This document shows positions 2,592 through 57,489 of a stretch of 64,000 nucleotides of DNA, one piece after another. The stretch covers positions 744,001 to 808,000 of the forward strand of contig NBBA01000015.1 of assembly GCA_002794785.1 (NCBI GenBank), read 5' to 3'. The stretch comes from Coniferiporia sulphurascens (lineage: Eukaryota; Basidiomycota; Agaricomycetes; Hymenochaetales; Hymenochaetaceae). Numbering within the stretch: position 1 is the first letter of the stretch; each line of letters begins with the position of its first letter. The notes under the pieces were generated by a model that ran no database searches, had not been told where the DNA came from, and was given only the letters and a program-made list of their open reading frames with translations. The position numbers were made by a program, and so were the translations under genes.

Positions 2592-2629
2592 TTAGCAGAA
2601 GGCTCAGCATCAATGCCGGCACTTACGCT

Positions 2630-5050
2630 TTTGCCGCTTTCATGACAAAAGCTGAGAACAGGTGTAGAGGGGACACTGTTCTTATTCTTAGCAGTCGGAC
2701 TCTAATAGAAATAGAGTTAGTACACATTATAGACACCGTGAACTAAAGCAAGCCGACATGTTGTCCAGCCATACAAGTGCCACTCATGCCTGGTACGGAC
2801 GGAGAAGGCAACTACCAGCAATGAGAAAGATTAACGTACCTGGGATTTTCTTCGCTGGGCCATAGGTGACGAGTGACGATCACCGGTACGTATAGATGTG
2901 TGGGGTACGGCGGGGTTGCAGTGCTGAAGAATGGCTCGTTACAATAGCTGTGTGTCTGTACGCGGGGGAGTACGAATACGGGAAGTAGAGGAGCTTTCTT
3001 TGCGAGGTTTTATACGCCGCTTGTTGTAATAAGGAGGATCAAGACCGCTGAATCTGGAGACACTCGGCGACGAAAGAAACACGGCGAGAGAAATTTCGCC
3101 GAATCCATTCGAATACTTAGTGGCCTTCTTGACATTGAGAAGCGAGGCGAACAGCCTCTACTTGAACAATTTGCGCCGTACCAGGCGATGTCCCTTTGGA
3201 GGCGGAGAGCCGAATTCAAGTGTCCACCTCTTTCTATATCAACGCCTGATAAGGTCATCACTTCTCTAAACTGCAATCCCCGAAGATTGGGTTTATGGTG
3301 CGATTACTCACCCTTTTGTACCTAGCATCATATGGCATATGATCTCATTTTCTGCTTCTAAATTCTCGTTACAGATTCACTCATACCGTTTCCTGTCGAT
3401 GAACGGTATTGGCCAGGTTTGGCTCGGGCAAAGAGCGATGTTAATATCTTGATGGCGCCGTTGCTTGTATGAGAAACGACCCGCCAGTAACACGATTCCC
3501 ACTTCCATGGTCCAAGTAAAATCGGCGAACGGAGAGAAGAGCACGAACTCATCGCCGAAAGACATGAGATTAAACCATCAGAGGGCGAACGCGCCGAGAG
3601 GCGAAAGGCGAAGGTGATGCGAGTGGGACAGGCGATTCCGTTCAATCGCGTGGGAAGGCACAATCAAATGCGACGGCTAAAGCGGCGATCGCCTGATTCT
3701 GTTCTCAAAGCGCATTGGGCCTGCTACCGTGATTGCTATCTCTCCAAACATAGCATTATATCGTTCGCAGGTAAAACAATGACAGGACCATTTCGACGTT
3801 TGTCAGAATACGCTTCTCGCCCTGACGGCACCACCAGAAACTGGAATCGGGCCCGTCACGAGTGGTTCACTCTCAAGGTTGGCCAGATTGTTCCGAGCCC
3901 TCCTGCTCCGCCGGTCTGCCGCATCAAAGGATACATGCTAGTACTTGCGTGAGGCGATCCGTAGGTTGGATACATTACTCGGTCTAATTCTCATACTGAT
4001 ACATACTGACTACGGGATAGGTGCTCTGGAAAAACAAGTGGACCGCTAGAACGCATGGAGTAGTGTGTATTTCCAGGAACCCTTTATCGAAGGTCCTGAC
4101 GGCACAATCTGTTCCGCTGATATTCAACAGGTCGTTCTGTGGGATAGCTCCACTCAGTGTATCCCGCCGTATGCGGTTCATCATATTCAGCTCGTCTGTT
4201 TGAAGTCTTGCTAGGTTCAGTATTCAAAGTTCAGTATTCAAAACGTACGTCTTCTGACGACGTAAAGCCGCGAGCGATGCTGTAGGGACTTGCCCCAAGT
4301 TCCGCGGTGTCCCTCGTTTCAAGTACGAGGCCGTGAGCTACATACTTCGATCAGAGGTTTCCCTGATATCGCAGTGGATAGTAAAGTGTTCGTAAAAGTT
4401 TCTCAGCAGAACGCTGAGCAATTGAATACCGATTAGATCCATATAATGTAGGAAGCTACATGACTAAATTAGATAGAACTTTTGGACTTTCGGCGCGATA
4501 GGCCGGTGTAGTAGTCTGCACGGAATAAGGCGATTACTTGATATGTCTATAGCCTTTTATCTTATATTAGGACGTCAACGGCCCACATCAGCGCATTACG
4601 GACGAGGCGATTTACCGTTTGGGGTGAGGAGGCTGGTATCATATCTGGCCTAGTTTCTTGGCACAGGATATTTCTCCAATCCAGGAAAGAGCCTTTGCGG
4701 GCCTGAGCCTGGATGCTCACATCCGAGTCATTGACGCAGTAAACATTGGCTTCGATATCACAATCATATCGTCGGCGTATTTTCGCCCTTAGACTGCCTA
4801 TCTTCGACTCCGCGCCGTAGGCCCGATGTCGCCGTAAACCTTGTTGCAGTGCGCCTGATTTTAAGAAGCGCGGCGTGCATCAGCCCGAGGCCATCCCTAC
4901 TCGTCCCTCAAGAAGCCTGTTCTTTTTCCGCTAGGCGACATTAATTCGTTAACTAAACTGGAAAAAGTCAATGGCTCGCCTCCTTCGGAGAATAACGAGT
5001 GCCTGATCTTATCCTTGCGATCCTCGCCTACAAAATCTGGCCTTAAGTTG
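2630..5050 (-). repeat. Left copy of a large inverted duplication
   Basis: About 2.4 kb that recurs, diverged and in inverted orientation, at about 54.34-57.46 kb. Matching landmarks include 2650-2850 with 57240-57445, 3010-3290 with 56780-57070, 4030-4110 with 56040-56110, 4560-4720 with 55420-55580, and 4890-5035 with 54345-54510. The two copies differ by many substitutions and by a 757-bp insertion found only in the right copy. Written on the minus strand the left copy carries a small open frame (3565-3377) that is also present in the right copy. I see no transposase or reverse transcriptase, so whether this is an old transposon or a segmental duplication is open. Sub-sequences recur a third time near 54.23-54.31 kb. 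Confidence 0.8.
3377..3565 (-). CDS. Repeat-borne small ORF, 62 residues, copy 1
   Basis: An open frame beginning MSFGDEFVLFSPFADFTW, with closely related versions at 56519-56707 and 57490-57684. Shared features in all three are an N-terminal FGD-x-FVLF-x-PF-x-D-x-x-W stretch, then a hydrophobic segment (GI[VM][VL]LA), and a C-terminal W-x-[IV]-PF-x-x-R. It could be a real short protein, an exon of a longer repeat-encoded gene, or simply a conserved block of the repeat that happens to be open. I do not recognise it and infer no function. Confidence 0.3.
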   Translation of the reverse strand: MSFGDEFVLFSPFADFTWTMEVGIVLLAGRFSYKQRRHQDINIALCPSQTWPIPFIDRKRYE

Positions 5051-7630
5051 AGGTTATACCCAGCGTCAAATCTCAATCGACTAGCAATGTCTGCATCGCC
5101 AAGTACGCTCCGATGAAGTACATGCGAGTCAAAAAGCACACCTCACTCATTGCAACAAGGAACTCGCGACTGTTCCGGCTCAAACTCCCGGGGCTCGTTC
5201 GTTCATGGAAGACCGGATGCTTAGGCCCCCTCGCAAAGAGTTCCCTGAGGGAAAACGACCGAAGGTATCGTCTCCTACAACCCCTGACTAAAGCTCACGG
5301 CTCACGACCCATAGTGTGAGCGTACGAGTGTTGGAAAGAAATGTGAGGATATAGAGAAGGGTCCGATTTGCCGGAATGGCGACGCACAAAGACACTTCAT
5401 TGGTCGAACTTATTCTGGGATAGGGTCGACTCTAGGCTCGGATTGGCGGATAGTCCATCAGTTACGATCAATTGTCGTGTCTGCAATGCGGCAATTTTCT
5501 TTCGCTGTCAATCAAATTTGCATGTGCCGTATATGGTGCTAAATATAAGGCTGCGCCTTCAATGGACGTAGTAAACTAAAATTAATATAGATAGAGTAAG
5601 CTGACGGTTAATAATGGGCTGACAGATGACTAAAATAACTTGCCTTGAGCAGGGATATATGTATGTAGACCTAAGAGGCCCGTTGTTTATTGTCTATGGT
5701 GTATGTTAAATCAAAGCGATAAAATATCGGCACGAACACCGACGTGTCCGTCCGTCTGGAGGAGGTGAATAGCCTTATGTCAGTTGGTCAGTTACACGAC
5801 AACTACGTGGGGATGTATAAGCACATGCTGGAACTTAAACCGTCTCAGCAAACTCACTAGCCGAATTGAACCTTCTTAATGTATTTCTGAGTTCCAACCT
5901 TGATGCAGCGAAGGCATTTGTGATTGAAGTAAAGACGTACATGCGGGCCTTTTGCGTTTCAGAGTTCTAAATGCTGTTAGACTTGAAGGCCGCTCGACAT
6001 AAAAACATGTCCTAGGAGCCCGGCGGGGGTCAGAGTCACTCAGACTTTTGTGCTCGAAACGTTTACATTCAATACGCGTTCGGAACCAGAATTTGCATGG
6101 GGTATATTTGGTGCCATTTATATTGCAGAGTAGTACAATATTGCTGACGTGAATTCATGAAACTAATTGCGGATCAAGGCAGACCTGAGGCTGGGTGACC
6201 AGTGAATCGTGATCGTCTGTCGTGATTCTAAATCATAATAATCATAATAATCAAAAATAATCACACGGAGATGGCACGACACCCACCCTTTCATGGCCAC
6301 TTGATTAGCAACGATGACTGTCCCACCTCATTGCTCTCCTTCAGCGTCACCTCCCTCGTCTCAGGCTTGGTAGAAGGCTCGCCGCTACTTGCTGCGTTCC
6401 GAGTCTTGGCTCATATTAGTCGATCGCTTGCCTTAGGCGGTCTATCTCTTGCGTTCCGACCGAGCAACATCACCGCGCCTATGCCATATCTCGTACATGA
6501 AGTGCTTGCGTTTCGGTGTCCCGCTCAGATTGAATCCATTTGGAGTCCAATCGGCAGGTCACCAAAGCTCTACTTGATATTGATCAAGTTGCTTTGTGTA
6601 CGTACGGTCTGGCTGCGGCTGTATGGTGAGGTTGGACCGTGTCACCGCGCGCAACGGATCGGCCATCAGCTTGAAGATAACGTGATGTCAAGTGCCATGC
6701 CCAACGTTGGAAAGGTTGGAGATTAAGGAGTGCCTCAAATAATGGAAGTGGGGCGCATATCAGAGGGATCCAACGAACCGTGGTATCGGGTCTGGGTGAG
6801 CGCGACTCGGACGGGATGGTCTCGTTGGCCTCACTGAAGATTATTGTCGGTCTGTTCCTAACTGCTGGATATCCTCTTGTTGCTTTCTGTCATCTTTCTC
6901 TGATGGCCATCCTGGAAACGATGAGGCGTGTGGTGCATTCAGTCCTAGAAGTCGTCACCCAAGAGAATTGGTAACAGATGCGGGAAGTGGACTGAATGGA
7001 GTCCTTTCCTACGACCCTGGTGCTACTAGATTGTCTTGTCTTCAAGTTTTCCTAGAGCTTAGCCGGATGTCGTGCAGCTATTTTCCTTCAGCGGATGTGT
7101 AGGGGTCTGTCTTGTTCTTGCAGTTTCCGCGGACGTGTACACGTAAAAAGGATATGAGATAACGCTATTTGGGAACCGACCGGACGAATCGACGTACTTG
7201 TGCAGTGGTCCTGTAAGCCTCCAATATTGCTCTTCTTGACCGTCTGACTAAACAGTCTATGACGAGAAGATACATCCATCCCAACCGAGAATGGCTCGAG
7301 ACTTGGAAGTGCTTCGTGCTGCCGTAAACAACATGGGCGTCTCCGGCCAAAACCCCCGATCTAGCGCCAGTCCGATTATTTTCCTTCCACGACTCTGTTT
7401 CATATCACCATCGTCGCCGCTCGCCGACGTGCTCGACCAGCGAGATGGCTTTCGTTCGGCGAATCTGGCCTGGCTTACCGCAAACGAAGGCACTCGACAT
7501 TCACGGGCTGATACCGGATTGATACAGAAACTATAACGGTTTTCTTTACACTTTTGCCGACACCATGAGAGAGCATAGAAAGAGCCCAGTCTCCCTTCCG
7601 CCCGCGCTCGACTCCCCTCCTCAGAATCGC
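5051..7630. other. No gene recognised (5.05-7.63 kb)
   Basis: No exon chain with consistent phase could be built here. An AAT-rich microsatellite-like run lies at about 6227-6262. The longest open stretch (6271-6726, plus, 151 codons) has no recognisable domain, and splicing signals around it are not convincing. The tract looks like decayed or intergenic sequence upstream of the regulator that starts at 7632. Confidence 0.4.
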
Positions 7631-7631
7631 G

Positions 7632-9870
7632 ATGATTGCAAAGCCGGGTGCGAAAAAAGTGCTTCTTCGGAAACCAGGCTCAACCTTGTCGGGCGCGCGC
7701 TCGAAAGCAGCGAAAACAAGGAACCCGAGACCTTGTGCCACTTGTCAACGATATAGGCAGGGTGTAAGAACACATTATCAACTTTATGGGAACGTGCTAA
7801 CGGTCATATGTATGAAGTGCAAAGGTGGTATTCCATGTTTTCTTTGCAAACAAAAACACAAGATGTGCACACCAGGGAAACCCCATAGTACCCGGGAAGT
7901 GGTTGAGAGCGGTCAGCCAGTACGTCGCAGCGACTTTGCCTCACATATGACCCTCATCATGTGCTCACAGGCCGAGCGTATCTTCATACAACAAACGGGA
8001 AAACGTGAGGAGTGAGTTGTCCAGTTCGGTAGTGTTATCCACCTTCATGAAGTACCTCCAGACCCGAACGACAACGCGCTCTTCCCCCTCCTGCTGGGCC
8101 GTCCGTATCTCCCAACCAGCTGCAGGTGGAAATAGTTCCAGTGTCAGTGCGTACTCTTTCGTTTCAAGTAATGGAAGTGTCAGAATCTTTATCGATGTCC
8201 CAAAATTGCGTTGAAGGCACACGACTCTTGCACTCGTCCCTACGCCAGTCCGGTGGATGCCGTTTCTATTGTGCGTCTAAGTCGCGCATAACATCGGCGT
8301 CAATGTCAATATTGCTTAGAGGATGATTGTCATGTACAGCAGCCTTGTCCTTATGTCCCCCGTGATGCTCCCAACTCACCAAGCTGTGAAACGCCAGTCA
8401 CAAGCTCAGTGCGTGTCTAGGACTTGACCATGAGAGGTGGCTAATGCGCTGTTGCAGATAAGAAACGCCTTCTCTTCACTCAGAATCTTCGACAATGGGG
8501 ACCCTGGGGATGATCGTGTTCCGAGTCCGAGCCCGGAGCAATCATACTTCGAGGCGACCACCGATTCGGTGCGTGTGGCCCCCGAAGTGCGTCCCAGTCG
8601 TGCGCCAGAGTCGACTTACGCGATTATTGAAGCATGCTTTTCATACGCAGGGACTTGATCCTCCTATTTCCTGTGACGCTCTAGAATCGCTGAAATGTGC
8701 ATACCGGACCATGAACCCAGTGCGTTTTTTGGACTCACTTGTGACTTATATAGTGTGATAGCTGAGGCGCTGTTGTAGATCGGGACGAACCTTTCTACGT
8801 TTAGCCTTTCTGATAAGGGATCTCGCGACGATCGTCTCCAAAGTTTGGAATCGGGATACTGTTCTAATGTATGGAACGAGGTGTCTATCTATGGTTTTCT
8901 GAACCCTGTTCTCGATAATGGATGCATTATTATGATCAGCATTCTCAAGCCCCTCCGCATCATCCCGTGGGTCCCAATGATGCCCATAAACAATATGGCA
9001 ACCCTGAAAACGACTTTCGTCTATCCCCGCCGTATGAGTCGCTTTGGCCACCATTGCAATATGCTGAGCCCAATTTGCCTGATGGGTTGTACAACACAGT
9101 ACGTACACAACTTTCCCTATGATGGCTATTGGACTGAGTGACCCTCAAATAGACAGCGAGGGGGACAAGTTCGCGTTATATGACGGCCATGGCAAATGCT
9201 CATGCACCTTTCCAGCAGCAGGCTGAGTTTAACCAGGTATGAGTCTTGTCTGTACCCACATACTTCCTCTTTGGGGCACATTCATGGTCGTCCTAGAGTG
9301 TTTCTTGGAGTACGCAAGTTACTGTCGAGCGTCCTGATGGTGCGAGCTTCTTCTTTGTTCTTCTGTTGGTAGCGTGGCTAAGAGGACATTATAATAGGAT
9401 TGCTCCATAATCTCGTGAGTATTTTTACTGTTGTAATCTGGCACACCGTCGCTGTCGTAATTTTTTTCGTTGATATGCCCCTTTTTGTTGCAGGTCGGGA
9501 GCCCTTTAGACACAGTTCCACTTAGAGAGGCCGAGCAAGGGGAAATTTACAGTTTCAGCCTTCCTGACGTGATCAGTACATCCGCAGTCAGTGTCTCTTT
9601 TGCATTCATAATACATCAGAATAGGTTTGAACACGTTAAAATTAGGCGGGATCCAACTCACATGAATCCTTGGATATGCCCGTGTATAACGCAGGAACAG
9701 TATATGACGGGCAGGGCATATTTGTCCCGGAGATACCACACGATCCCGACAGGCTAGATGACATGCTAGAAGAGTTTTTTCGGTAAGCTAAATTAAAAAT
9801 AATTAGACGAACAGCTGACTAATGCAAACTCAGTCTTCTATCAAATACGGAATCTATCACTCAATCCTAA
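7632..9870 (+). CDS. Zn2Cys6 transcription factor, paralogue A
   Basis: A fungal binuclear zinc-cluster regulator, expected to bind DNA in the nucleus. Resolved exons are 7632-7763, 7818-7919, 7971-8011, a segment ending at 9098, 9153-9236, 9494 to about 9567, 9646-9782 and 9834-9870; the part between 8012 and about 8900 is not resolved. The first intron (54 nt, donor GTAAGA, branch CTAAC) removes exactly the codons that interrupt the cluster. After splicing the motif is C-x2-C-x6-C-x5-C-x2-C-x6-C, canonical Zn2Cys6, preceded by basic residues (SKAAKTRNPRP). The C-terminal part is Pro/Asn/Gln-rich and ends in an acidic segment (DRLDDMLEEFF), typical of activation regions. It forms a tandem pair with the gene at 10818, which shares the cluster, its intron position and a downstream AE-rich exon. 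Target genes are unknown; the repeat-peptide gene at 15.7 kb is a neighbour but no link is shown. Confidence 0.75.
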
Positions 9871-10817
9871 TCAGCCATTGTGTACTATCGAGGCTTCTTT
9901 ATAGTTATAACCCATGAACCCGTTTTTCATTTGTCACATGGTGTATAACTTCTGAAAGTATTGTAAGGTCTATGCTTGCATTGTCTTCAACAATCTATAC
10001 CCGACATTTAGTACAGCAAGGGAACTTCTTTTGGGAAGTGCCTGAAGTGAAAATTACACAAAAAATTACAGGTTCTCTTTAGTTGATGCTTAATCATATG
10101 TACATGATACGAGGATTTTCGCTGTATCATAAACCGTAAAAGTCCCCCGGCCGAGTTTGTTTTAGTGCCACGTTGGCTCAATACTTAGTTTAATTTGTCG
10201 TCATTAATTGACCCGAAGCCCGGCTTGCTTGTCGACGTTCGCCGACACCATTAATATCGAGATGGTCGTGTCTAGAAGTGAGAATGCCTCATGTCTTCAT
10301 TGAAGCCCCGCGGCGACAACCCCGGATATAAATATTAGACTCCTGCAAACAACACTCCGTTCATCATCGAGTCAGTTTCGACGTATTGGGCAACGGGGAA
10401 TAAGTTCCGAATAACAGCAAAACACGGATATATTATAGCATAAATCCAAGGGCAGGACTTACAGGCATCAAAACGGGCTCGGAAGTGGTTTCTGTGGGCG
10501 TTGGGAGCTATAGTGAAATTCAAATGCGCCTTGCGGCGAATACCGTTCGGCGGAATTGCGCCACACTCAAACCTTTGTCCCAACAATGGACTCGGACAAG
10601 CCGGCGAGACTCCCCTGATACCACCCACCCCCCCATCAAACCCACAACTGGATTGTATACGAAAACGGTTATCGGCTTGGACAACTCGAATAATACATAG
10701 CCTGCAAGGGGGATTATGTATATCAGGCGGCCGATGTGCGAGGGTCTAGTGGTGCAGCGTACGTTTCCTGGCGTCCTATTTCCTCCCCCAAGTCGGTATC
10801 TGCTTCTCAAAATCACG

Positions 10818-13114
10818 ATGAACAGTTCTTCTGGAAGCAACCCAACTCGTTCCGCACGTTCAACCGCTGCGCGGAATAAAAACCCCAACCCGTGCAGACG
10901 CTGCCAGAGAGGCAGATACGGAGTATGCACAAATGTTCATTATCATCGCGCCGAGTTTAACAAGTGGACTATGAAGTGTGTTTTTGGCCCTCAGGGGTCT
11001 TGCTCTAGGTGCGACAATGATGGGAAGCCATGCATTCCCGGAATTCCGAGAAGGTCCAGTGTGCCCCCAGATGTATATCATGGTCCAACCTCTAAGCGAA
11101 TGCTACCCTCATTACAATGCGACCCGAAGGATACCTTCGTCTCTGTAGATGCCGAGAGCTTGTGAGCGGGCCGAAATCAACCAATTTTAATTCTTATAGC
11201 TCATTTTCACAGAGCTGAACAAGTTAGAAGACGTTACACTGCAGTCCGTAGGTTGTCCGTACCCGCGACAGGAGGGCTATCTACGGTTCGTTTCGCGCCC
11301 ACCGCTAACTTGCCTTTTATTCGCCTGAATGTATCTGCCTTTACACTTGTAATCTTTCAGCGCGGCGCTAGAAGTGGACGAGGTCAAAGGCGCCACGACG
11401 GATTCGTCGGCGGTTCAATTATGCCTGTGACGGAGGTAGCTTCTATGGTGCGTTCAGTGCATGCTCAGTCCCGCGTTATCCAGTATAACGTTTGCCTGAA
11501 GTCATCTTCCCCTTCCACTCTGATCCCCCCGGTATTGGAGGTGAGGACAACAGAACAGTTCGATGTGGTTTGTAAATTCTTCCCCGGGCGCTGGTATGCA
11601 ATGTTAATCCGAAAGCAATGATCCATGAAGGTGCCGACTACGACTGAGCCGCCCAGTGATCAGACCGCGCTTATGCCCAGTATTCGCGAATTGCCTCCTA
11701 CATACCAGGTGAGTAGCGCCGTCACTTTCCATGACAAAGTTCAGGCTCAAATGAACTCGAGCCTGAGGCACTGCAGCAAGTTAACGTCGGTCCCGCTGTC
11801 GCCTCCGTCGATAGTGGCCATGAGAATGATCGAGTCAAGGAAAATATATCAACATCCGGTGATATTTTAGGATCGTCCTATGCTGCTGACGTGCGCGAAG
11901 TACGTGATGTCCTCGGTTTTCGGTCGTATAATTGGTTAATCTGTTTATAGCGTTCGTATACGGATTCTCTTTCTCTCTCTTTTGATTTCCAGGATTCGCT
12001 TCCCGGGAATGCACAGATGCGCATTGAATCCCTAGATCAGCTATGGTCCAGGCTATTTGGCGTGGTTAATCTTGCCGAGGTACGCCAAATGATTGTCTTA
12101 TCTGATGCGCACGCGATATAATATGAGCGGGATTGTCAGGGACTCGACTCGATGCTGGACCCCTCAGTACCACATTATCAAGAACTGCTTGACAATCATA
12201 CCCAGGTGGGCATGCATCCGCGTTATGCGCATATATCTTAATTAACACGGATGATTCTCGTAGAGCGAAAGTATCGGACAAGGAGGCGGCCTCAACTCGT
12301 CACTGACACTGGAAGCTCCTGTCACTGCACTCGAACTTGTGCGTACCACCAGTGGGTCTCGTTCCAGCCATGCGTTAGGCTAACCAACAAGAAGCATCTG
12401 GGCGTAAACACTTCAGGACTTACTATGGACGCCCAAACGAACTGCTTTCAAACTACAGGCTCGGTCGGGATTAACGTTTCCAAGGCACGTATAGCCGTTG
12501 TTTCTTCGTCTCTAGCCTAGCCTTCAGGTGGTTAATAAGTATCTAGGACTTCCTATCATCTGCATACGATCTTAACCCGAATCAGCAGCAACGACCTGCT
12601 AGTCAGGTTTGTGCGCACTTTGTCTCGTGCGCATCCACCTGATAAACCTGGATGGTTTCTACAGAGTATCAGCTCCGAGATAAACACACGCCTTGAAGCT
12701 TTGGAGGATTCCGCTTCCGATAGAGTTGCTTGGAGGATGACTTCCAGTGTGTGCATTAACTATCTTCTTTACGTATCTACGACTAACGCCGTCTCGACAG
12801 ACTTTCAAGTTCTTGTGAGTCAAACATTGAGACATGGAGTTGACTACCAAACAATTCTTGACTTGTTTCTTCGACCACTGAAGGGAACTGAGGTTTCAAA
12901 GGGACTGTTCGATTCAAGCCCGATTCAAGTATCTAGTGATGCAAACGAATGGCCGCCCGATTTTAATCTATACTTGGACGGAGAGCCCGATAGCATCAAT
13001 GACACGGGAAGGTGAGAGATAAGCTTGCTGGGCTAGAGGGGTTTACCTGACTTTGTTTTTAGCCTTGACGAAGTCATGGCAGCCATTATGTGTTGGTCTC
13101 CACCGAGTGTTTGA
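10818..13114 (+). CDS. Zn2Cys6 transcription factor, paralogue B
   Basis: Tandem paralogue of the gene at 7632. Exons resolved at the ends: 10818-10922, 10977-11161, then from 11213, a long exon ending at 13011, and a last exon 13063-13114. The intron 10923-10976 is 54 nt, the same length and phase as in paralogue A. Once removed, the motif is C-x2-C-x6-C-x7-C-x2-C-x6-C, a canonical binuclear cluster with basic flanks (RSARSTAARNKNPNP). The 3' coding exon (about 12611-13011) is mixed helical sequence containing ASDRVAWRMTSSVC and ends in the acidic stretch DGEPDSIND, and the product finishes CWSPPSV. Exons between 11.3 and 12.6 kb are present as fragments but their joins are uncertain. It is presumably a nuclear regulator; no target can be inferred. 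Confidence 0.72.
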
Positions 13115-15613: not shown

Positions 15614-15620
15614 TATATAA
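15614..15620 (+). promoter_or_regulatory. TATA box of the repeat-peptide gene
   Basis: TATATAA in the context GGATATATAAGGACGAGG, about 120 bases upstream of the preferred start codon. It is followed by pyrimidine-rich sequence (CTCTTCTTTG, CACCCTCCACCC) of the kind found around fungal transcription starts. A strong TATA box suits a regulated, highly expressed gene, which is inference. Confidence 0.6.
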
Positions 15621-15738
15621 GGACGAGGGAAGGGCTTCGCTACATCGTTTTCGAGTCCTTTGCATAACACCTCTCTTCTTTGTTCGCTCTCCCGTGCCTT
15701 ATCCCACCCTCCACCCTCTTCTTGCTATGTTACAGCTC

Positions 15739-16582
15739 ATGAAGTTTAGCATCCTCTCAATTGTTCTCGGCTTGGCTATTGCCGCCGTCGCCATTCCGCT
15801 CGACATTGTGAGTTCACACTATTCATCCGTACATCCTCTTATGCCGTTGCTTATGTTCAATGTTGGGCTATCTTTCTTAGCGCACCACAGGGCTTGCGGA
15901 TGCGTATAAACGTGACGCCGCACCACTGGCGGAAAGTTTCCGTCGTGACAAAGCTCCTTTGCCGGATAGCTTTAGGCGTGGCGAACCTCTTCCAGACAGC
16001 TTCAAGCGTGAAGCAGTCCCCTTGTCGGACAGTTTCAAGCGCAAAAACACTCCCCTACCGGACAGCTTCAAGCGCGAAGCGGTCCCGTTGTCGGACAGTT
16101 TTAAGCGCGAGGCCGCTCCCCTACCGGATAGATCTGTGCCATTACCGGATAGCTTTAAACGCGAAGCGGTGCCTCTATCGGACAGTTTCAAGCGCGACGC
16201 TGCTCCTCTGTCGGACAGCTTTAAGCGCGAAGCGGTTCCTTTATCGGACAGCTTCAAGCGCGACGCCGCCCCTCTGTCGGACACTTTCAAGCGTGATGCT
16301 GCCCCTTTGACCGACACTTTCAAGCGGGATGCTGCTCCTTTGTCGGATAGCTTCAATAGCGACGTTGCTCCTTTACCGGATAGTTTCAAGCGCGTTGTTG
16401 CTCCTCTACCAGACAGTTTCAAGCGCGATGTTGCCCCTCTGCCGGATAGTTTCAAGCGCGATGTTGCTCCTTTACCAGACAGCTTCAAGCGCGACGCCGT
16501 TCCTTTATCAGACACTTTCAAGAGAGTTGACACTCCTTTGCCGGATAGCTTCAAGCGGGCTGCTCCAGGAGATAACTTATGA
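15739..16582 (+). CDS. Secreted Kex2-processed repeat precursor (KEP-like)
   Basis: Two exons: 15739-15807 and 15881-16582 (73-nt intron, GTGAGT...TTCTTAG, phase 0), 256 residues. Exon 1 encodes a classical signal peptide (MKFSILSIVLGLAIAAVAI), so the product enters the secretory pathway; upstream in-frame ATGs (15727, 15694) would only lengthen the N-terminus. Exon 2 is almost entirely tandem 11-residue (33-nt) units, consensus [DE]-[AV]-[AV]-P-L-[PS]-D-[ST]-F-K-R. After an initial YKR site, 18 cores end in KR or RR, the recognition sites of the Golgi protease Kex2. Many cores begin with DA, EA or DV, the kind of dipeptides trimmed by Ste13-type dipeptidyl aminopeptidases, as in yeast alpha-factor. 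Predicted mature peptides are 7-9 residues with core PL[PS]D[ST]F. The tail is AAPGDNL. Family comparison: fungal KEP proteins (alpha-factor, Ustilago Rep1, dikaritin precursors) share architecture, not this core. Function is unknown: signal, surface or defence peptide are all possible. No tyrosine occurs in the repeats, which argues against a ustiloxin-type cyclic product. Confidence 0.88.
15914..16560 (+). repeat. 33-bp coding minisatellite in the peptide gene
   Basis: About twenty copies of a 33-nt unit with synonymous and conservative differences between copies (TCGGAC/CCGGAT/CCAGAC and so on), so the array is not a fresh slippage product. Two places break the pattern: a unit ending FNS instead of FKR, and a shortened unit where PD-R-SVPLPD replaces a full repeat. 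Reading frame is kept throughout. The array also leaves the antisense strand open, which is a by-product of the repeats. Confidence 0.9.
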
Positions 16583-31800: not shown

Positions 31801-34800
31801 CTAAGAAACTAACCCAAAGAAGCTGCCGCCCGTCATCTTCAGCTTTGAGCGCAGCGTGCCAATGGATCCTGTTCGCTTATGACCGATCATCCCACCACCT
31901 TGAGCGATGCCATTGCGCCGCTGTGCGCCGGCACTAGGTCCATATTGCGCAAGCGCCGCGCGCTTCTGACGCACACGGTAGACGAGTGCCGCCGCTGCAA
32001 TTGCAGCGTCCGTCATTGGGCTACGTGGGTCCGAGAGCGTCAGGCGGTTCATCCTGCGCCGCCCAAGGACCGATACGCGCTTTGGCTTCGCAACGCCATT
32101 GCTGTACGTAGACATGACGGACTTGCACGAAGCATTCGATTTGGTTGAGACGGCAGAAAGCGGAGCCTGCGAGGCGGGGACGAGTACCGCGCCGCCTTTG
32201 AACTTCGTCACGACACGTAGCTTCGGCAGTGGCGAAGGACGCATGAAGTTCGTGAAGTCCGCCGCAGCTGCGGCCGCGCTACCGTCCGTCGATGTAGAGC
32301 CGGAAGATGCAGGGACAGGGAAGGTGCTTGGGTCGGGCAGGGCGCGGATCGCCGCACGCACGGCGGCAACGGACCGTGAGGACGCGCGCCTCTTCACAGA
32401 ATTGGTGCTGCGCCGCTTGCTCTTCCTGTACTCACTATTGGTGGACGTCCTGTACGACTTGACCTCAGCCGGCTCCTCGTCAATATCGACGAAGCTCTTG
32501 TCACCGTCATCGAAAGGCGCGCTGGAAGGAGGTGCTAGGCCATGACCTGTGTTGACACTGCTCGCGATCGTGTGCAGACTGCCCCTCCTTTCTTCCTTAC
32601 TCGCACCCGCGATGCTCTTCATCATGTCCACGAGTGTAGGGTCGAGCGACACTCGGTTCGAAAACCCGAACATGTCCTGTTCACTGCGATTTGTCTCAAC
32701 AGTCCATACCGAGCGGCTCGTCGGACAGCTATCATCGAGCCCTGTGACCTCCGTGATGGGTGTGTCGAGCGTCATAAAATTCGCTGGTGGCCGTTGGTCG
32801 TCATTCCCCACGGAAGAAGTAGGACGGGCTTTATTAGATGTCGTGCTGACAATCGACCCCTGCCTGCGTGGTCCGAGCTTGCTATTTCGGAAGCGCAGCG
32901 GCTCAACAGTGGGAGTAGTAGCCGAGTATAGCCCCGAGCTCAACGATGTTGAGCGATACGTGCGTGTACCGGAACCGCTGAATGCACTCGGGGGACTGCG
33001 ATTCTTAGCCGCGGCCTCTGCCGCGGAGAACGTCGTCACTGCGGCTTCTGCGCTTCGAGGGACAGATGCCGGCGGTGGTAGCGGGATCGGTCCGGATTTT
33101 GCGGCAGCCGGCGCGGGCGCAGGGTCGACCTTCTGCGCGGACGCCTGGCTCGCCGTCCGACGGATACGCAGCGGCGACACAGACGGCGTAGTATATAAGA
33201 TGGTCGAGGCTCCCGAAGGCAGGTCAATGGCACTAAGCCGGAATTCACTTCCGTACGCTGGCGCTGAGGTTGCCGTAGCGGGCGCACCGACCGAGAATCC
33301 GAATGCACTCGGTGGTGGGAGGCTGTTCGCGACCTTCACATCAATCGCAGGCGGGCGGGTATTTGTGTGATGCGCGTGTTTGCGCGAGCCCAAGACCACG
33401 TTGCTCGCGGTTCGGCCATGTTTCGTTGTCTGGGGGACACCACCGGTGACGGACAGTGCGCGCCGGCGCGGAGGCATCGGCTGGTTAAGCAGTGGGACAC
33501 CCATAGGCAGGTCTAATATGCGTCTCTTCAAGTCTGCGATCTCATCCCGCGTTCGTGTGTGCGAAAGCTGCGAAGGTGCGTTCACATGTCGCGACTGAAT
33601 CGGACGCGGAGGTGACGACGCAGGCGTTCTACCTTGTGGCACGTTTGTCTTTACGCCATACGTATCCATACCAGGTAAGGTCGCGCGCTCCGCAGGCGTT
33701 GTGCCCAAGCGTGCCCAAATCGCACCGGGACTCGGCGGGGCCCCACGTGCAGACGGTATGGGCATCTCCGCCGCACCAAGTGCGCTCGGTCCGGGGATCA
33801 CGAGTGCCGTCGGCGGAAGCGGGAAGCGCGAAAGTGAGAATGCCGACGGCACCGGCGACACCAGCTCTTGCTCCTGTCCTCGCATTGGCGAGAGCAGCTG
33901 CGGCTGTGCGGTCATCTGCGTCGGAGCGAGTGAGTTCGAATTTGGATGAGGAAGGGACCTGGCTTCGCGATCCGGCGACGTGCGCGGCGTCGCAGCGGGA
34001 GTGGGCAACCCGGTTTTAGAGCCGATCTTGTCTGACGCCACGGTTGCGTAGGCATCACCATCTCTGGACGCCGAGGTGCTGCTTCTTGGTCGCGTAAGGA
34101 CGCCTTCCATGTCGATCCCCCCGTCTTCTTCGACCTTGGCGCGGACGGGCACATGTGTCGCGGGCGTTGGGAGCACTTTGTCCCCTCCTTCCACCCCTCG
34201 ACCCTCACTCACCCCCGACTGCAAATTGATAACAGGCACATCATCAAACCACTTCGACTCTTCTGCGCCGCCGGTATCATTCTCATCCAGAATGCGTAGA
34301 AGCTCGTCGATCTCGGGTACGGAATACATGGACGTCGCCCTGCTTAGTACGCTCACGGTCCGCTTGACGTTCCGGCTGATACTGCCTCTGTCTCTTTTTC
34401 GAGAATCCCTGTCACCACCGTCACCGTGCTCAGGGAGGATATTGTCACCGGGACCGACAGCGGGCCCGGACACGTCTTCACGGCCGATTAACGATATAGT
34501 TGACCGGCGTATGCGAGAAAGGCGGAGGGGAGCCTCCACTGGAATTGGAGGGAGAGGTACGATGTTTGGACTCGCGCTTGAGCTCCTGCCCTCATTCCCG
34601 GATGTGTCTGAGCGCGGCGAATCGACGCCTGCCGGCGTTTGGGGTAAAGGTCGAGACCGACGCATGTCAGCGGGAACGTCCGGCTTCCTGAACGGAGTGG
34701 GCGGGAGTGGGCGCCATCCTGCGGCTGGTGCGCTTGCCACGCGTACAAGTGCGCTCGGACGAGGGTCCCATGGCAGCGGATGTGAGGGTCGTGGGACGCC

Positions 34801-36078
34801 GTACGGCGGTATGGGCCCGTTTTCCCCTTCCATTCCCGTTTCCTGTCCCAATAGCTCTTTTACACGCGGGGTCTCGGGGTCGAAAAGGCGCGACGCGCGG
34901 GAGCCGTACGTGAGTACGCTGGAACCATAAGTCTGTGTGCTTTCACGTGCGGGGTCACAGTTGACAGACAAGCGGCTCGAGTCCGGGACGCCGCCCACGC
35001 CGCTATCGTAGCCGTACCAAGAGTTGGAACGCATACTTCCCGTCTCGAGCGTGAGCGCTGAGATGGGACCGCCACTGGACATGGAGTCAGGCATGAGAAC
35101 ATGAGGTAGAAGCGAGTTGCGAGCAAGGCGCATCGCGATGATCGCATCTGCGTCCGGGCGGTTATCGACATTGTCGAGCGCGTCAAGGGATTGTAGGTCC
35201 AGGGTGGCAAGCTGGTCGAGATCTGCGTCTGGAAAGGCGGTGGTGGTGGGGGAGTAAGCGGGGATGGATGGAGAAGCAGGCAGAGGCGGGAGTGACGCGC
35301 GGGGGAGGTAGAGAGGTGCACCAAGTACGATGTCAGAGGGGTGGATCTGACATAGGTAGGGATGAAGATAATTAGCGATCTTTGCGTGGCAGGGTCGGTG
35401 GAGCGTATGTGGGAAAGAATTATACAAGTTTGATGATATTGAAAATAGAACAGATGTCGGGTAGGAAGTAACCGTGGAGGTAAATCGTGAATGATACGGA
35501 TTATCGCAGGAAGACAGGGGCATGGTTAAGCAAGGATAACAAAAACGCACCTTAAAATCTGCGTCTGGTACATGTACATCATCGCTAGCGGCACTCTGAC
35601 GCTTTTCTTGTCGACTCCCTTTAAGCACATCATCGTTGTCGTGGGGAGGTGAAAGGCAAGCGCGCATCGAAGGTGTAGGCGGGCAGGACATGCCGAGGTC
35701 CGAGCCTGAGCCCGAGTTTGAGTCAAGTGTGTCTGAGCCAGGCGAGCTGGAGTCCGAGTCTGAGCCCGAACCGGGGTAGGCGAGGGAGTCACGGGTGAAA
35801 GCGGTCGAAGAGACGGACGCAGAGGTGGATTGATGAGGGTGAGGGGTGTGTTGAATATGCGACTGTGAGCGTGAATGTCGCTGCTTGCTATACCTCGGGG
35901 ATGCGGGTGGCGCAGGCGTGACACAAGTGCCACTGCTCAAGAGGCTATCCCGTACGGAGGAGGCGTACGCAGCGGCGCCCGTCTGCCGCAACGCCATCAT
36001 CTCAGTTTCACGTACGGCTGAGCGAGGGGGCGGAGTGGCGACCGGACGCGGGCCCGAGGCGATCATGGTATCCTGCAT
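31801..36078 (-). CDS. Large Ser/Pro-rich protein of unknown function
   Basis: One of the longest uninterrupted frames in the window, 1,425 codons from the preferred ATG at 36078 (the frame is open to 36480, but the extra 134 residues look like upstream sequence). The protein is disordered and rich in Ser, Pro, Arg and Ala, with poly-acidic and Pro-rich patches (PLPPTPFRKP, VPLPPIPVEAP, PPLPASPSIP) that suit SH3 or WW partners, an S/D-rich run near residues 95-120, and a basic C-terminus (RRRMNRLTLSD, KRTGSIGTLRSKLKMTGG). No catalytic domain, membrane span or signal peptide. A likely 204-nt intron (35347-35550, GTGCGT...GTCAG) is a multiple of three with no stop, so both 1,357- and 1,425-residue products are possible. 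I do not recognise the family; a scaffold or signalling adaptor is a guess. An 845-bp retroposed insertion lies about 570 bp upstream of the ATG. Confidence 0.75.
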   Translation of the reverse strand: MQDTMIASGPRPVATPPPRSAVRETEMMALRQTGAAAYASSVRDSLLSSGTCVTPAPPASPRYSKQRHSRSQSHIQHTPHPHQSTSASVSSTAFTRDSLAYPGSGSDSDSSSPGSDTLDSNSGSGSDLGMSCPPTPSMRACLSPPHDNDDVLKGSRQEKRQSAASDDVHVPDADFKVRFCYPCLTMPLSSCDNPYHSRFTSTVTSYPTSVLFSISSNLYNSFPHTLHRPCHAKIANYLHPYLCQIHPSDIVLGAPLYLPRASLPPLPASPSIPAYSPTTTAFPDADLDQLATLDLQSLDALDNVDNRPDADAIIAMRLARNSLLPHVLMPDSMSSGGPISALTLETGSMRSNSWYGYDSGVGGVPDSSRLSVNCDPARESTQTYGSSVLTYGSRASRLFDPETPRVKELLGQETGMEGENGPIPPYGVPRPSHPLPWDPRPSALVRVASAPAAGWRPLPPTPFRKPDVPADMRRSRPLPQTPAGVDSPRSDTSGNEGRSSSASPNIVPLPPIPVEAPLRLSRIRRSTISLIGREDVSGPAVGPGDNILPEHGDGGDRDSRKRDRGSISRNVKRTVSVLSRATSMYSVPEIDELLRILDENDTGGAEESKWFDDVPVINLQSGVSEGRGVEGGDKVLPTPATHVPVRAKVEEDGGIDMEGVLTRPRSSTSASRDGDAYATVASDKIGSKTGLPTPAATPRTSPDREARSLPHPNSNSLAPTQMTAQPQLLSPMRGQEQELVSPVPSAFSLSRFPLPPTALVIPGPSALGAAEMPIPSARGAPPSPGAIWARLGTTPAERATLPGMDTYGVKTNVPQGRTPASSPPRPIQSRHVNAPSQLSHTRTRDEIADLKRRILDLPMGVPLLNQPMPPRRRALSVTGGVPQTTKHGRTASNVVLGSRKHAHHTNTRPPAIDVKVANSLPPPSAFGFSVGAPATATSAPAYGSEFRLSAIDLPSGASTILYTTPSVSPLRIRRTASQASAQKVDPAPAPAAAKSGPIPLPPPASVPRSAEAAVTTFSAAEAAAKNRSPPSAFSGSGTRTYRSTSLSSGLYSATTPTVEPLRFRNSKLGPRRQGSIVSTTSNKARPTSSVGNDDQRPPANFMTLDTPITEVTGLDDSCPTSRSVWTVETNRSEQDMFGFSNRVSLDPTLVDMMKSIAGASKEERRGSLHTIASSVNTGHGLAPPSSAPFDDGDKSFVDIDEEPAEVKSYRTSTNSEYRKSKRRSTNSVKRRASSRSVAAVRAAIRALPDPSTFPVPASSGSTSTDGSAAAAAADFTNFMRPSPLPKLRVVTKFKGGAVLVPASQAPLSAVSTKSNASCKSVMSTYSNGVAKPKRVSVLGRRRMNRLTLSDPRSPMTDAAIAAAALVYRVRQKRAALAQYGPSAGAQRRNGIAQGGGMIGHKRTGSIGTLRSKLKMTGGSFFGLVS

Positions 36079-36632
36079 GCGCGTCGGGACTCGGGCGTCG
36101 GGGGATGGGCGGGCGGGCGAGCACGAGGCTGCGGGCGAAGGTGAGGGGTGTCGGTAAGGGGCGACAGAGGCGGTCAATTCTGGTGAGAGAGGGTCGGGAG
36201 TGTATAAGTATAAGAGTTGATGTAGAGAGAACAGCTCCGTTTGGGCGCGTACTGCTCCATATAGCAAGAACCGTCCGGGGCTAGCCCTGGAGATCAAAGG
36301 TGAGGGTCCCGTGTCCCCCCCATCCGCTGGCCGACCGTCTGCTTCGATTGGCGACTTGAGAAAAAGAAAAAGAGGAAATAGATAAGACATGGGTTCGCTT
36401 GTACGACCATCTGTGATCGAATTCCGACAACGGCTTCGGTCAGAAGACGACTCGATCCTTGATTCGGCGATGCCGGTCACCTAAAGAGTCAATTCGTAGT
36501 CGTGGGTATGACCGCTTATGCATTCGTGCAAAGTTGGTCGATTCTCGCATCTTTCTGCGTTGTGAGCGGCTCGAAGTTGCAGAACGCGCGGCCATGACGG
36601 CGTCGGGAGAGCTGGACGACGAACGCGGTCGG

Positions 36633-54230: not shown

Positions 54231-54623
54231 AAATTGCGCTTTAAGAGCAGAATCAGGAGATCGCCGCACTTGATTGCGCTTTCCCACGCGACTGTACAGA
54301 ATCGCTCTCACCGGCACTCCCCGGAGTCCCCTTCTTTCAAGTTATATGAGGATCGCACTGGCAAGGATAAGACCAGGCAGCCGTTATATCCCCGAAGGAG
54401 ACGAGCTAATGACTTCCGCCAATATGGTTGGCGATGTAATGTTGCCTAGTGGGAAAATAACAGGCTCCTTAAGGAACGAGTATGGATGGCCTCGGGCTGA
54501 TGCACGCCGTCGCCTCTAAAACCAGGCGCACTGCAACAAGGTTTACGGCGGCATCGGGTTTAATGCGCGGAGCCGAAGATAGGGGGAAAAGGTAAAATAT
54601 GCCAACGGTGGGATTGTGATAAT

Positions 54624-55380
54624 GGATGACTTTCCGTAGACTAATTATATTATACTAGTAGTATTTTCTGCCCATATCAGGAAGGACCTCACTAGCGGAA
54701 AAGTGCCGGGGTCCCTGTGCACTGCATCAGAAGGTTAAATTGGGCTGAATAAACCCTAATCTACGAAGGGGGGTACCCCCCCCCTTCGTAGATTATTGTA
54801 GTCACGAATATAATATAAAAGGAAATAAACCCTGAATCGCTTTCCGGAAACTCGGCGATTTGTAATTACATAACATGCCACCAACGCATTATGCACCGGT
54901 TGGGAGGCTGTTATGCCTTTATTTTATTGTGTTCTGGAGTGGGTGTATGCACAGACATTTTGATTTAACTTGTAGGCTTTAGCTATTCTAATTTGGTGAA
55001 GAAACCCATTAGTATCAACCCTTGCACACATTTGAAGTGTTGCTCATGCCTTTGCCAGGCTACTTTCTCTTAACACTGCTAAGCTAATACCTACGTTATA
55101 TCTATTTTGACAATTTGTACACATTCCAGGTATTTTCCAACGCATATATGCATAACATGCGGCTTCGCTGAGTTGTTTGAGTGAAGTGGAAGTTTGTGCA
55201 GATGGGAACTAACTTCCATATTAGGCGTACAGATGTTCTATTAGGCCCATCTTAGTAAACGTTGCTGATGGCCTACTATTTTTATTCACGAATATAATAT
55301 CCATCAGGCACGTTTTTGCGGTGCCAAATAGGGTCCAAATTACTATGACTATAATAAAAAAAGTCTACGGAAAGTCATCC
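54624..55380. mobile_element. Nested non-autonomous DNA transposon, 757 bp
   Basis: Terminal inverted repeats of 19 bases (GGATGACTTTCCGTAGACT) bound the element, with AAT on both sides (54621-54623 and 55381-55383). The left copy of the host repeat, near 4755-4765, lacks the element and gives the empty site: GGCTTC-GAT-ATCAC against GGCTTC-ATT-[element]-ATTATCAC here (minus-strand reading). That makes the boundaries and the 3-bp duplication unusually secure. No transposase is encoded. A 3-bp duplication fits PIF/Harbinger- or CACTA-like mechanisms, but AAT is not the usual TWA, so the superfamily is open. Confidence 0.85.
54757..54795. repeat. Long perfect hairpin, 17-bp arms
   Basis: TAATCTACGAAGGGGGG at 54757-54773 is the exact reverse complement of 54779-54795, with a 5-base loop (TACCC). 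The stem contains a G6/C9 core. It sits inside the nested transposon, about 130 bases from its left end, and is absent from the empty site. Confidence 0.9.
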
Positions 55381-56518
55381 AATGAAGCCACAGTTTAATG
55401 TACAGTATCTATGACGTGATCGTCCAGGCCCAAGCTCGCAAAGGGTCTTTTCTGGATTGGAGAAATACCTTGTGCCAAGAAACTAGGTCAAATATGATAC
55501 TAGCCTCCTCACCCCAAACGGAAAATCGCCTTGTCTGTACCCTGTGTTACACATAATGCGCTGATGTGAGCCGTCGACGTCCTGGTGTAAGAGAAAAAGC
55601 TATAGACATATCAAGTACTTTTCTTATGCCGTGCAGACTACTACACCAGCCTCCCGCGCCAAAAGTTCTATCTCATTAAAATCATATCATTTCATACATT
55701 ACCATGAAAATTCGGTATTCGATTGTTCAGCGCTCTGCCGAGATATTGTCACGAACACTTTTACTATCTACTGCGCTAACAGGGAAATCTCTGATCGAAA
55801 CATGTAGCTCACATCCTCGTTATTAATACTGGGAACACCGTTGGAGCAACATTATGCATCCATACAGCATCGTCAGTAACCTTAAATCGTTAGTAACGAG
55901 CGTTCCGCGTTTTAGATATTGAACCCAGCAAATCTTCAAGTAGACGAGTTGAGCATATCAAACAGCATACTATAGGATCCACTGAGTGAAGCTATCCCAC
56001 AGAGCGACTCCGAGTATCAGCGGGGCAGATTGTGCCGTCAGGACCTTCAATAAAAGGTTTCTAGGAATACACATCACTCCATGCGTTCTAGCGGCCCCAA
56101 GAGTATCTATTCCGTAGTCAGTATGAGATTTAGATCGAGTACTGTACCCAGCCTATGGATAATCTCACGCAAGTATTAGCATGCATTCTTTGATGCGGCA
56201 GACCGCAGCAGGCAGAACAAACTAGTCAGCATCGGGACTGAACCGCTCGTGACGAGCTCGATTCCAGTTTCTGGTGGTGCCGTCAGGGCGAGAAGCGTCT
56301 TTTGACAAAACGTCAAACTTGTACCTGCGAACGATCATATGAGAGATAACAAGCACGGTCGATGCGCTTCAATAACAGAATCAGGCGATCGCTGCTTTAG
56401 CTTATTGCGTTTTCCCACAGGTCAAATCGCTCGGCATTTCCCAAATTCCCATCACCTTCGTCTTTCGCCCCCGCCGCGGCTTCCCCTCTGTACTGTATGT
56501 ATTATGCTTCGATATTTC

Positions 56519-56707
56519 ATGGCTTTCGGCGATAGGTTCGTGCTCTTCTCTCCGTTCGCCGATTCTACTTGGACCACGGAAGTGGGAATCGTGTTACTAG
56601 CGGGTCGTTTCTCATACAGGCAGCGGCGTCATCAAGATATTAACACCGCTCTTTGCCCGAGTCAAGCCTGGCCAATACCGTTCTTAAGTCGACAGGAAAT
56701 AGTATGA
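56519..56707 (+). CDS. Repeat-borne small ORF, copy 2
   Basis: Starts MAFGDRFVLFSPFADSTW and is about 62 residues, in frame with an upstream opening at 56339. It matches copy 1 (3565-3377, minus) at most positions, including QRRHQDIN-x-ALCPSQ-x-WPIPF, with differences mostly C/T and G/A at DNA level. Function unknown; it may be an exon or a chance open block of the repeat. Confidence 0.3.
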   Translation: MAFGDRFVLFSPFADSTWTTEVGIVLLAGRFSYRQRRHQDINTALCPSQAWPIPFLSRQEIV

Positions 56708-57489
56708 GTGAATCTGTAACGGGACTTTAGAGGCAGAAAATGAAAGCACATGCCATATGATGCTAGTGAGTGATCGCACCATAAACCCAATCTTCGGAAA
56801 TTGCAGTTTAGAGAAGTGATGACCTTATCAGGCGTCGATACAGTATAGTAAGAGGTGGATGCTTGGAATCGGCTCTCCACCTACAAAAGGACATAGCCTG
56901 GTACGGCGCGATTATTCAAGTAGAGGCTGTTCGCCTCGCTTCTCAACGTCAAGAAGGTTACTAGGTATTCAAATGAATTCGGCGGAATCTCTCTCGCCGT
57001 GTCTCTTTCGCCGAGTGCCTCCAGGTTCAACGGTCTTGATGCTCCCAAATTATAACGAGTGCGGCGTATAAAACCTCGAGCAGCAAACTCCTCTACTTTC
57101 CATATTCGTCTTCCCCCGCATACCGGTCTGTACACACGCATAGCTATTGCAATGGATTTCCCATCAGCTCTGCCTACTGTACCCAGAAAATCTGAACGTA
57201 CTAGTGATCTTCACTCGTCATCCACAATTATGTCCCAGCGAAGGAAATCTCAAGTACGTTAATCTTTCTCGTTGCTAGTAGTTGCCTTCTCCGTCCGCAC
57301 CAAGCATGTGCAACACTTGTGTGGCTGGACAAAGTGTTGACTTGTTTTAGTTTATGGTGTCTATAATGTGTACTAACTCTGTTCTATTGGAGTCCGACTG
57401 CTAAGAATAAGGACAGTGTCCCCTGCACACCTGTTTTCAGCTTTTATCAAGAAAGCGGCCAAAGTGTATATGACATGCTTTGATAATCC

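Follow-up and report, generated by a model that had tools for sequence, protein, structure and literature searches.

The locus at 15739-16582 raises two questions: what kind of protein it encodes, and what would become of that protein once it is made. It lies in a stretch of 64,000 nucleotides, referred to as the window, which is C15:744001-808000 of a 39.3 Mb genome. Two exons on the forward strand, when joined, translate to a 256-aa protein. The elements of this gene model are as follows.

15614..15621 (+): TATA-box-like TATATAAG, ~118 bp upstream of the ATG, its role presumed from position
15739..15807 (+): exon 1, with the start codon, a stretch that resembles a signal peptide by translation and hydropathy, and the first pro-residues
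15808..15880 (+): predicted intron, 73 nt, GTGAGT...TTAG, phase 0
15881..16582 (+): exon 2, with the rest of the pro-segment (RTTGLADAYKR), the peptide array, the tail and the stop TGA

The unspliced frame ends after 56 residues with a stop at 15907, and therefore the full-length frame requires splicing. The 73-nt intron is the predicted site. Alternative GT..AG pairs leave the frame open too, and the best donor is that of the 15808-15880 intron. A second in-frame ATG is present at 15727. Residues 3-18 of the precursor are hydrophobic, and AVA stands ahead of a likely cut after residue 18, which we place on the assumption that the -3/-1 rule applies. The precursor would enter the secretory pathway. 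The short pro-segment ends in KR and lies directly ahead of the array.

The array consists of 18 KR/RR-ended segments, followed by a C-terminal tail of seven residues, AAPGDNL. Sixteen segments are single units, of which 15 have 11 residues and one has 10, and the other two are fused units of 18 and 22 residues. A dibasic pair ends 18 of the 19 complete cores. To describe the products we use a trimming rule, in which N-terminal dipeptides are stripped as long as residue 2 is Ala or Pro. Class A units have the form [DE]A-xP-L[ST]D[ST]F; class B units carry the leaders DV, VV, KN, VD, DK or GE. The array and representative units are:

15914..16558 (+): the array itself, 18 KR/RR-ended segments; of its PLx[DE][ST]F cores, 19 are complete and 1 is truncated
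16010..16042 (+): class A example, EA-VP-LSDSF-KR, leader trimmable, predicted product LSDSF
codons from 16109 (+): truncated core EAAPLPD-RS, a trimmable leader joined to LP
16328..16393 (+): fused double unit in which NS replaces KR, predicted long product LSDSFNSDVAPLPDSF
16427..16459 (+): class B example, DVAPLPDSF-KR, leader neither X-Ala nor X-Pro, predicted product DVAPLPDSF

The first-pass annotation, made from the letters of this stretch, had described a signal peptide, one intron and an array of 11-residue units ending in KR or RR, and the two-exon model with its 18 segments bears this out at the level of sequence. Both of its counts are sound: the roughly 20 units correspond to the 19 complete cores plus the truncated one, and the 18 or so peptides to the dibasic-ended segments. 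The core it gave, PL[PS]D[ST]F, is conserved but was drawn too narrowly: position 3 can be T or A as well as P or S, and the core of one unit is PLAESF.

The array is not a product of chance. One ORF in the window has a segment that resembles 17 others, whereas first-order Markov resampling of the window, repeated 60 times, never gave more than 1. Pairwise dN/dS among the 19 units has a value of 0.089 when computed in the forward coding frame. The other two forward frames give 1.8 and 2.6, and the three reverse frames give 1.55, 0.17 and 1.69. The reverse frame with the value of 0.17 is the one that pairs its third positions with the coding third positions; the reverse strand also has an open frame of 249 residues. 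Variability is concentrated at third codon positions (in a column permutation test, 8 of 100,000 permutations reach the observed value). Purifying selection acts on the units as protein. Silent change among the units is near saturation (pS 0.72) while the peptide is kept, and the array is therefore probably old and selected as a peptide.

These properties point to a KEX2-processed repeat protein (KEP). Le Marquer (PMC6339444) defines KEPs by at least 4 KR/RR fragments, at least 3 of them similar, that fill at least 15% of the protein. Here, with similarity judged by sequence and not by the original pipeline, 18 segments span residues 35-249 of 256. We conclude that the gene probably encodes a KEP precursor with Ste13-type leaders and an alpha-pheromone-like architecture. 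The precursor would be secreted and a kexin would cut after every KR or RR, after which a Kex1-type carboxypeptidase would take off the KR and a membrane-bound Ste13-type dipeptidyl peptidase would strip N-terminal X-Ala and X-Pro pairs. Each of these cleavages is predicted from the precursor itself.

The genome has candidates for all three activities. Two kexin genes, on C5 and C13, each carry the Asp (VDDG), His (DHHGTRC) and Ser (HGGTSAAAP) motifs; both exceed the cut-off for the P-domain and have a hydrophobic segment close to the C-terminus. Among kexin fragments in one Pfam scan, only the S8 domain of the C5 gene was above cut-off. A single Ste13-like DPPIV_N/S9 gene, on C2, has an N-terminal hydrophobic segment, which we take to be a feature of Ste13 as well, and the motifs GW/SYGG, DDNV and SDH, the first of them split by a presumed intron. 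The S10 carboxypeptidases, with 34 matched stretches in the genome, are candidates for the Kex1 role. Ste13 itself is described as recognising X-Ala and X-Pro (PMC9252082).

Not every segment would be trimmed. The residues that follow the Kex2 site are X-Ala in 11 of 18 segments and neither X-Ala nor X-Pro in the other 7. Under the trimming rule, class A units would give the linear pentapeptides LSDSF, LSDTF or LTDTF, and class B units would resist trimming and remain as peptides of 8-9 residues ending in PLPDSF, namely DVAPLPDSF, KNTPLPDSF, VVAPLPDSF, VDTPLPDSF, DKAPLPDSF and GEPLPDSF. The 18 predicted products are 5 LSDSF, 2 LSDTF, 1 LTDTF, 1 ESF (from DAAPLAESF), 7 untrimmed 8-9-mers, all ending in PLPDSF, and 2 long products, which are the fused segments. 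The Ste13-like trimming proposed at first thus has the X-Ala leaders and the Ste13-like gene behind it but does not extend to all units, and the expected product size of 7-9 residues fits class B and not the 5-mers of class A. Ste13-type enzymes may be slow after Val, which counts against the trimming scheme. Taken together, we put two-class trimming of the precursor at about an even chance.

Leader and core are paired. In the 16 single units, the core Leu is followed by S, T or A in 9 of 9 cases where the leader is [DE]A, and by Pro in 7 of 7 with any other leader (Fisher, P = 8.7e-5). Across all 19 complete cores the split is 10/10 and 9/9 with no exception for Pro (Fisher, P = 1.1e-5), with 2 of the 9 class B cores sitting within fused segments, so that their leaders are not N-terminal. 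Over 14 distinct units P is 5.8e-4. Two cases are awkward: the first unit, DAAPLAESF, has LA and would be cut to ESF by the same rule, and the truncated core EAAPLPD has a trimmable leader ahead of LP. Scoring the LA unit as a violation in the single units gives P = 1.4e-3, including the truncated core gives P = 1.2e-4, and counting both as violations among 20 cores gives P = 3.3e-4. All these values overstate independence because the units are related by duplication, and the pairing was noticed first and tested afterwards. After correction over all 55 pairs of positions, the position 2-6 pair is marginal (max-statistic P = 0.048).

A blocked class B leader would matter because an exposed LP is a Ste13-type site, so that the core would be lost. 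It is conceivable, if rather unlikely, that the leader dipeptide gates entry of the Ste13-type enzyme according to whether that enzyme would destroy the core, so that one precursor would yield two product classes; the coupling of leader and core as a mechanism is read from this pattern. The pairing may also reflect descent. On that reading, to which we give appreciable weight though somewhat less than an even chance, the gene is a Kex2-cut KEP in which two old unit types, EAVPLSDSF-like and DVAPLPDSF-like, were spread by unequal crossing-over, and the pairing means nothing for trimming. The array does contain a 66-nt higher-order repeat, its classes run ABBABABAAAAAABBBBAB with the same types grouped in places, and leader positions 1-3 co-vary among themselves. 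On the other side, leader positions 1 and 3 show no significant co-variation with position 6 (P = 0.14 and 0.26), and seven silent sites do not split classes A and B (permutation P = 0.31), a result of low power with 7 sites near saturation. The six different class B leaders, in 7 single units, also speak against simple descent, in that all lack Ala at position 2 while 9 of 9 class A units keep [DE]A.

With the precursor itself as query, one other gene in the same genome was found, a sister KEP at C1:1899387-1900199 (-), a single open frame of 271 residues (reciprocal E about 4e-12). Most of the similarity comes from the repeated layout of leader and KR, and common descent is therefore plausible, not proven. 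When the rule is applied to the sister, 20 of its 21 segments lose whole dipeptides down to exactly ASADW, and one segment stays ELEPASADW; one 14-residue leader consists of seven X-Pro/X-Ala pairs in register. The KEP reading of the first-pass annotation, with its Kex2 sites and secreted repeat precursor, is upheld on the sequence and strengthened by this sister and by the matching protease genes. In protein searches the C1 gene has relatives with ADW cores in Dendrothele bispora, Stygiomarasmius scandens and two further sources, and it also matched Boothiomyces at E 0.33. PMC9769878 describes the peptides MSGVAADW, SGVAADW and LSGVAADW from Pleurotus and SGTGEASAADW from Lentinula, as well as removal of X-A/X-P leaders from a Coprinopsis KEP expressed in Pichia. 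The -AADW/ASADW KEPs of Pleurotus, Lentinula, Dendrothele and the C1 gene share their architecture with the window gene but differ in the core: a core ending in ADW is absent from the window gene, whose cores end in [ST]F, and present in its C1 sister.

DNA patterns for further KEPs were searched genome-wide; both miss RR sites and other codons. KR-[DE]-A-x-P has 46 sites against 30 for the reversed-pattern control, 11 of them in the window gene and 4 in the C1 gene, and the remainder are unclustered genome-wide except for a pair on C18, on opposite strands and 1.8 kb apart. W-KR-[DE] has 43 sites against 46 for its control, and the C1 gene accounts for 11 of the 43. Paired sites on C11 and at a distance of 4 kb from the C1 gene were checked with a simple ORF scan, which found no further KEP. 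An early sequence pattern also matched on C4.

Protein homology searches, in which about 8000 candidates sharing most words were scored per search, returned no convincing homologue of the PLx[DE][ST]F core. The database includes fungi, as the C1 query reached named NCBI fungal proteins. The sole protein match of the precursor was P0001 (E 2e-5), and a profile that included it drew in P0002-P0008. We rejected these as KEP homologues: P0001-P0007 have the non-repeat TSVGADATPPKPKPP in common and FLDEPPDKPPP occurs in all eight, and the KEP contains neither string. In our judgement the P0001 match reflects repeat composition, not kinship, and the profile E-values are no evidence for a KEP family. 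P0001 has DV leaders ahead of cores that lack LP and therefore gives no support to the pairing rule. P0007 has a hydrophobic start, and secretion of the P0001-P0008 family is possible. Exon 2 also matched FtsX_ECD and three other Pfam entries, all below the curated cut-offs, and these matches were set aside.

The strings DSF, SFKR, PLPD and PLSD are absent from the main texts of PMC6339444, PMC7329392 and PMC9769878, and a literature text search for core strings gave, among the matches listed, none whose title concerned a fungal repeat peptide. The earlier suggestion of an undescribed peptide family fits these searches as far as the core is concerned, within the main texts of the KEP surveys; the architecture is already known, with Ste13-type leaders established for basidiomycete KEPs (PMC6339444, PMC7329392, PMC9769878). 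Such KEPs resemble the window gene in their signal peptide, tandem cores separated by KR/RR, many X-Ala/X-Pro leaders and no tailoring cluster found. The window gene differs in cores that end in [ST]F and in untrimmable leaders in 7 of 18 segments, all 7 with a Pro core. Ascomycete alpha-pheromone precursors such as yeast MF-alpha share the Kex2/Kex1/Ste13 logic and the tandem copies; their core is, as we understand it, unlike that of the window gene. Compared by description rather than by sequence, Ustilago Rep1 and the UstA dikaritins also have a repeat precursor with dibasic cutting, whereas the window units are of 11 residues with main predicted products of 5-9 residues, no UstYa match on the contig and no Trp or Tyr in the cores. 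The gene would join a known kind, with a core that is apparently unreported and a two-class leader-core pairing that appears unusual.

The first-pass annotation had also named UstA-type precursors, and a dikaritin-type RiPP, with released cores cyclised by UstYa-family enzymes, would share this layout; the genome has six UstYa-domain matches. None of the six is on the window contig, however, all being on C4 and C2 in an exon-by-exon search that a split gene could escape, and Pfam scans of 31 selected window ORFs gave no UstYa, P450 or methyltransferase domain. Such absence is weaker evidence than presence because the search went exon by exon and 31 selected ORFs were scanned. The precursor has no Trp, and its sole Tyr is in the pro-segment with none in the cores. 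The neighbours that can be named are housekeeping-like (the first three below), and we consider a dikaritin pathway highly improbable.

20.1-21.2 kb of the window: Cwc15 (Pfam)
25.3-26.4 kb of the window: class V aminotransferase (Pfam)
28.8-29.9 kb of the window: Uso1 (Pfam)
41.4-41.9 kb of the window: saccharopine-dehydrogenase-like, sub-threshold match (Pfam)

Fungi also have repetitive secreted wall proteins, and the precursor could be an uncut wall or surface protein with incidental dibasic sites. Two observations argue against this: 18 of the 19 complete cores retain the dibasic pair, in many cases in register with an X-Ala leader (11 of 18 segments), and the C1 sister shows exact dipeptide register. 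We regard it as very unlikely.

Several other features were seen in passing. On C4, two pairs of UstYa matches (C4:1937186-1938669 and 1962977-1964461) lie about 25 kb apart in mirror orientation with equal or similar scores, probably an inverted duplication of a possible dikaritin-type cluster; a simple ORF scan of C4:1930001-1970000 found no repeat precursor near them. The window has an inverted interspersed repeat of about 2.4 kb (2624-5018 and 54361-57468, copies 77-81% identical) that looks like a degraded mobile element, with no domain identified. ORFs at 7569-8012 (+) and 10701-11162 (+) are related and Cys-rich (34% over 93 residues, E 8e-12) with no Pfam match, a possible family of small zinc-binding proteins. 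A single open frame of 1559 residues at 31801-36480 (-), is Ser/Pro-rich and has no Pfam match; part of the stretch around it is GC-rich, at 0.59-0.62 over 32-36 kb.

What the peptides do is a separate matter. KEP-derived peptides are widespread in fungi, with few detected and most without a known function (PMC6339444, PMC7329392, PMC9769878). PMC9769878 describes no apparent phenotype in Coprinopsis strains with knockouts of 6 kep genes, and given this result no signalling role is established for KEP peptides. Our best guess, a tentative one, is that the products would be secreted fungal signals, most likely unmodified, that pass between hyphae or act on neighbours. Nearly as likely, and a substantial possibility in its own right, the peptides are made as proposed but act outward on microbes, animals or plants. 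PMC9769878 favours such biotic interaction, since its kep knockouts lacked an axenic phenotype. No receptor is known for the window peptides, which fits outward action too. A STE2-type receptor had 0 matches in the genome, but no control genome matched either; the pheromone receptors found are of the STE3 type. Eight STE3-family matches, six over the cut-off, lie within 10 kb at C8:772662-781279, a cluster that we take to resemble a basidiomycete mating-type locus. This cluster, together with the introns, the ADW-type sister and the two kexins, suggests a basidiomycete fungus as the source. The peptides are short, Cys-free and, by computation, mildly acidic, and the lack of the usual antimicrobial features counts against outward action.

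The window gene, read as a KEP precursor, is a compact and testable case: its product sequences are predicted, its sister precursor has published relatives and the candidate processing enzymes are present, all in one genome. Should the leader-core pairing prove functional, one protease would control a two-product output. If gating by the leader holds, how much pentapeptide is made relative to nonapeptide would depend on how active one dipeptidyl peptidase is, a new route to two signals from one precursor.
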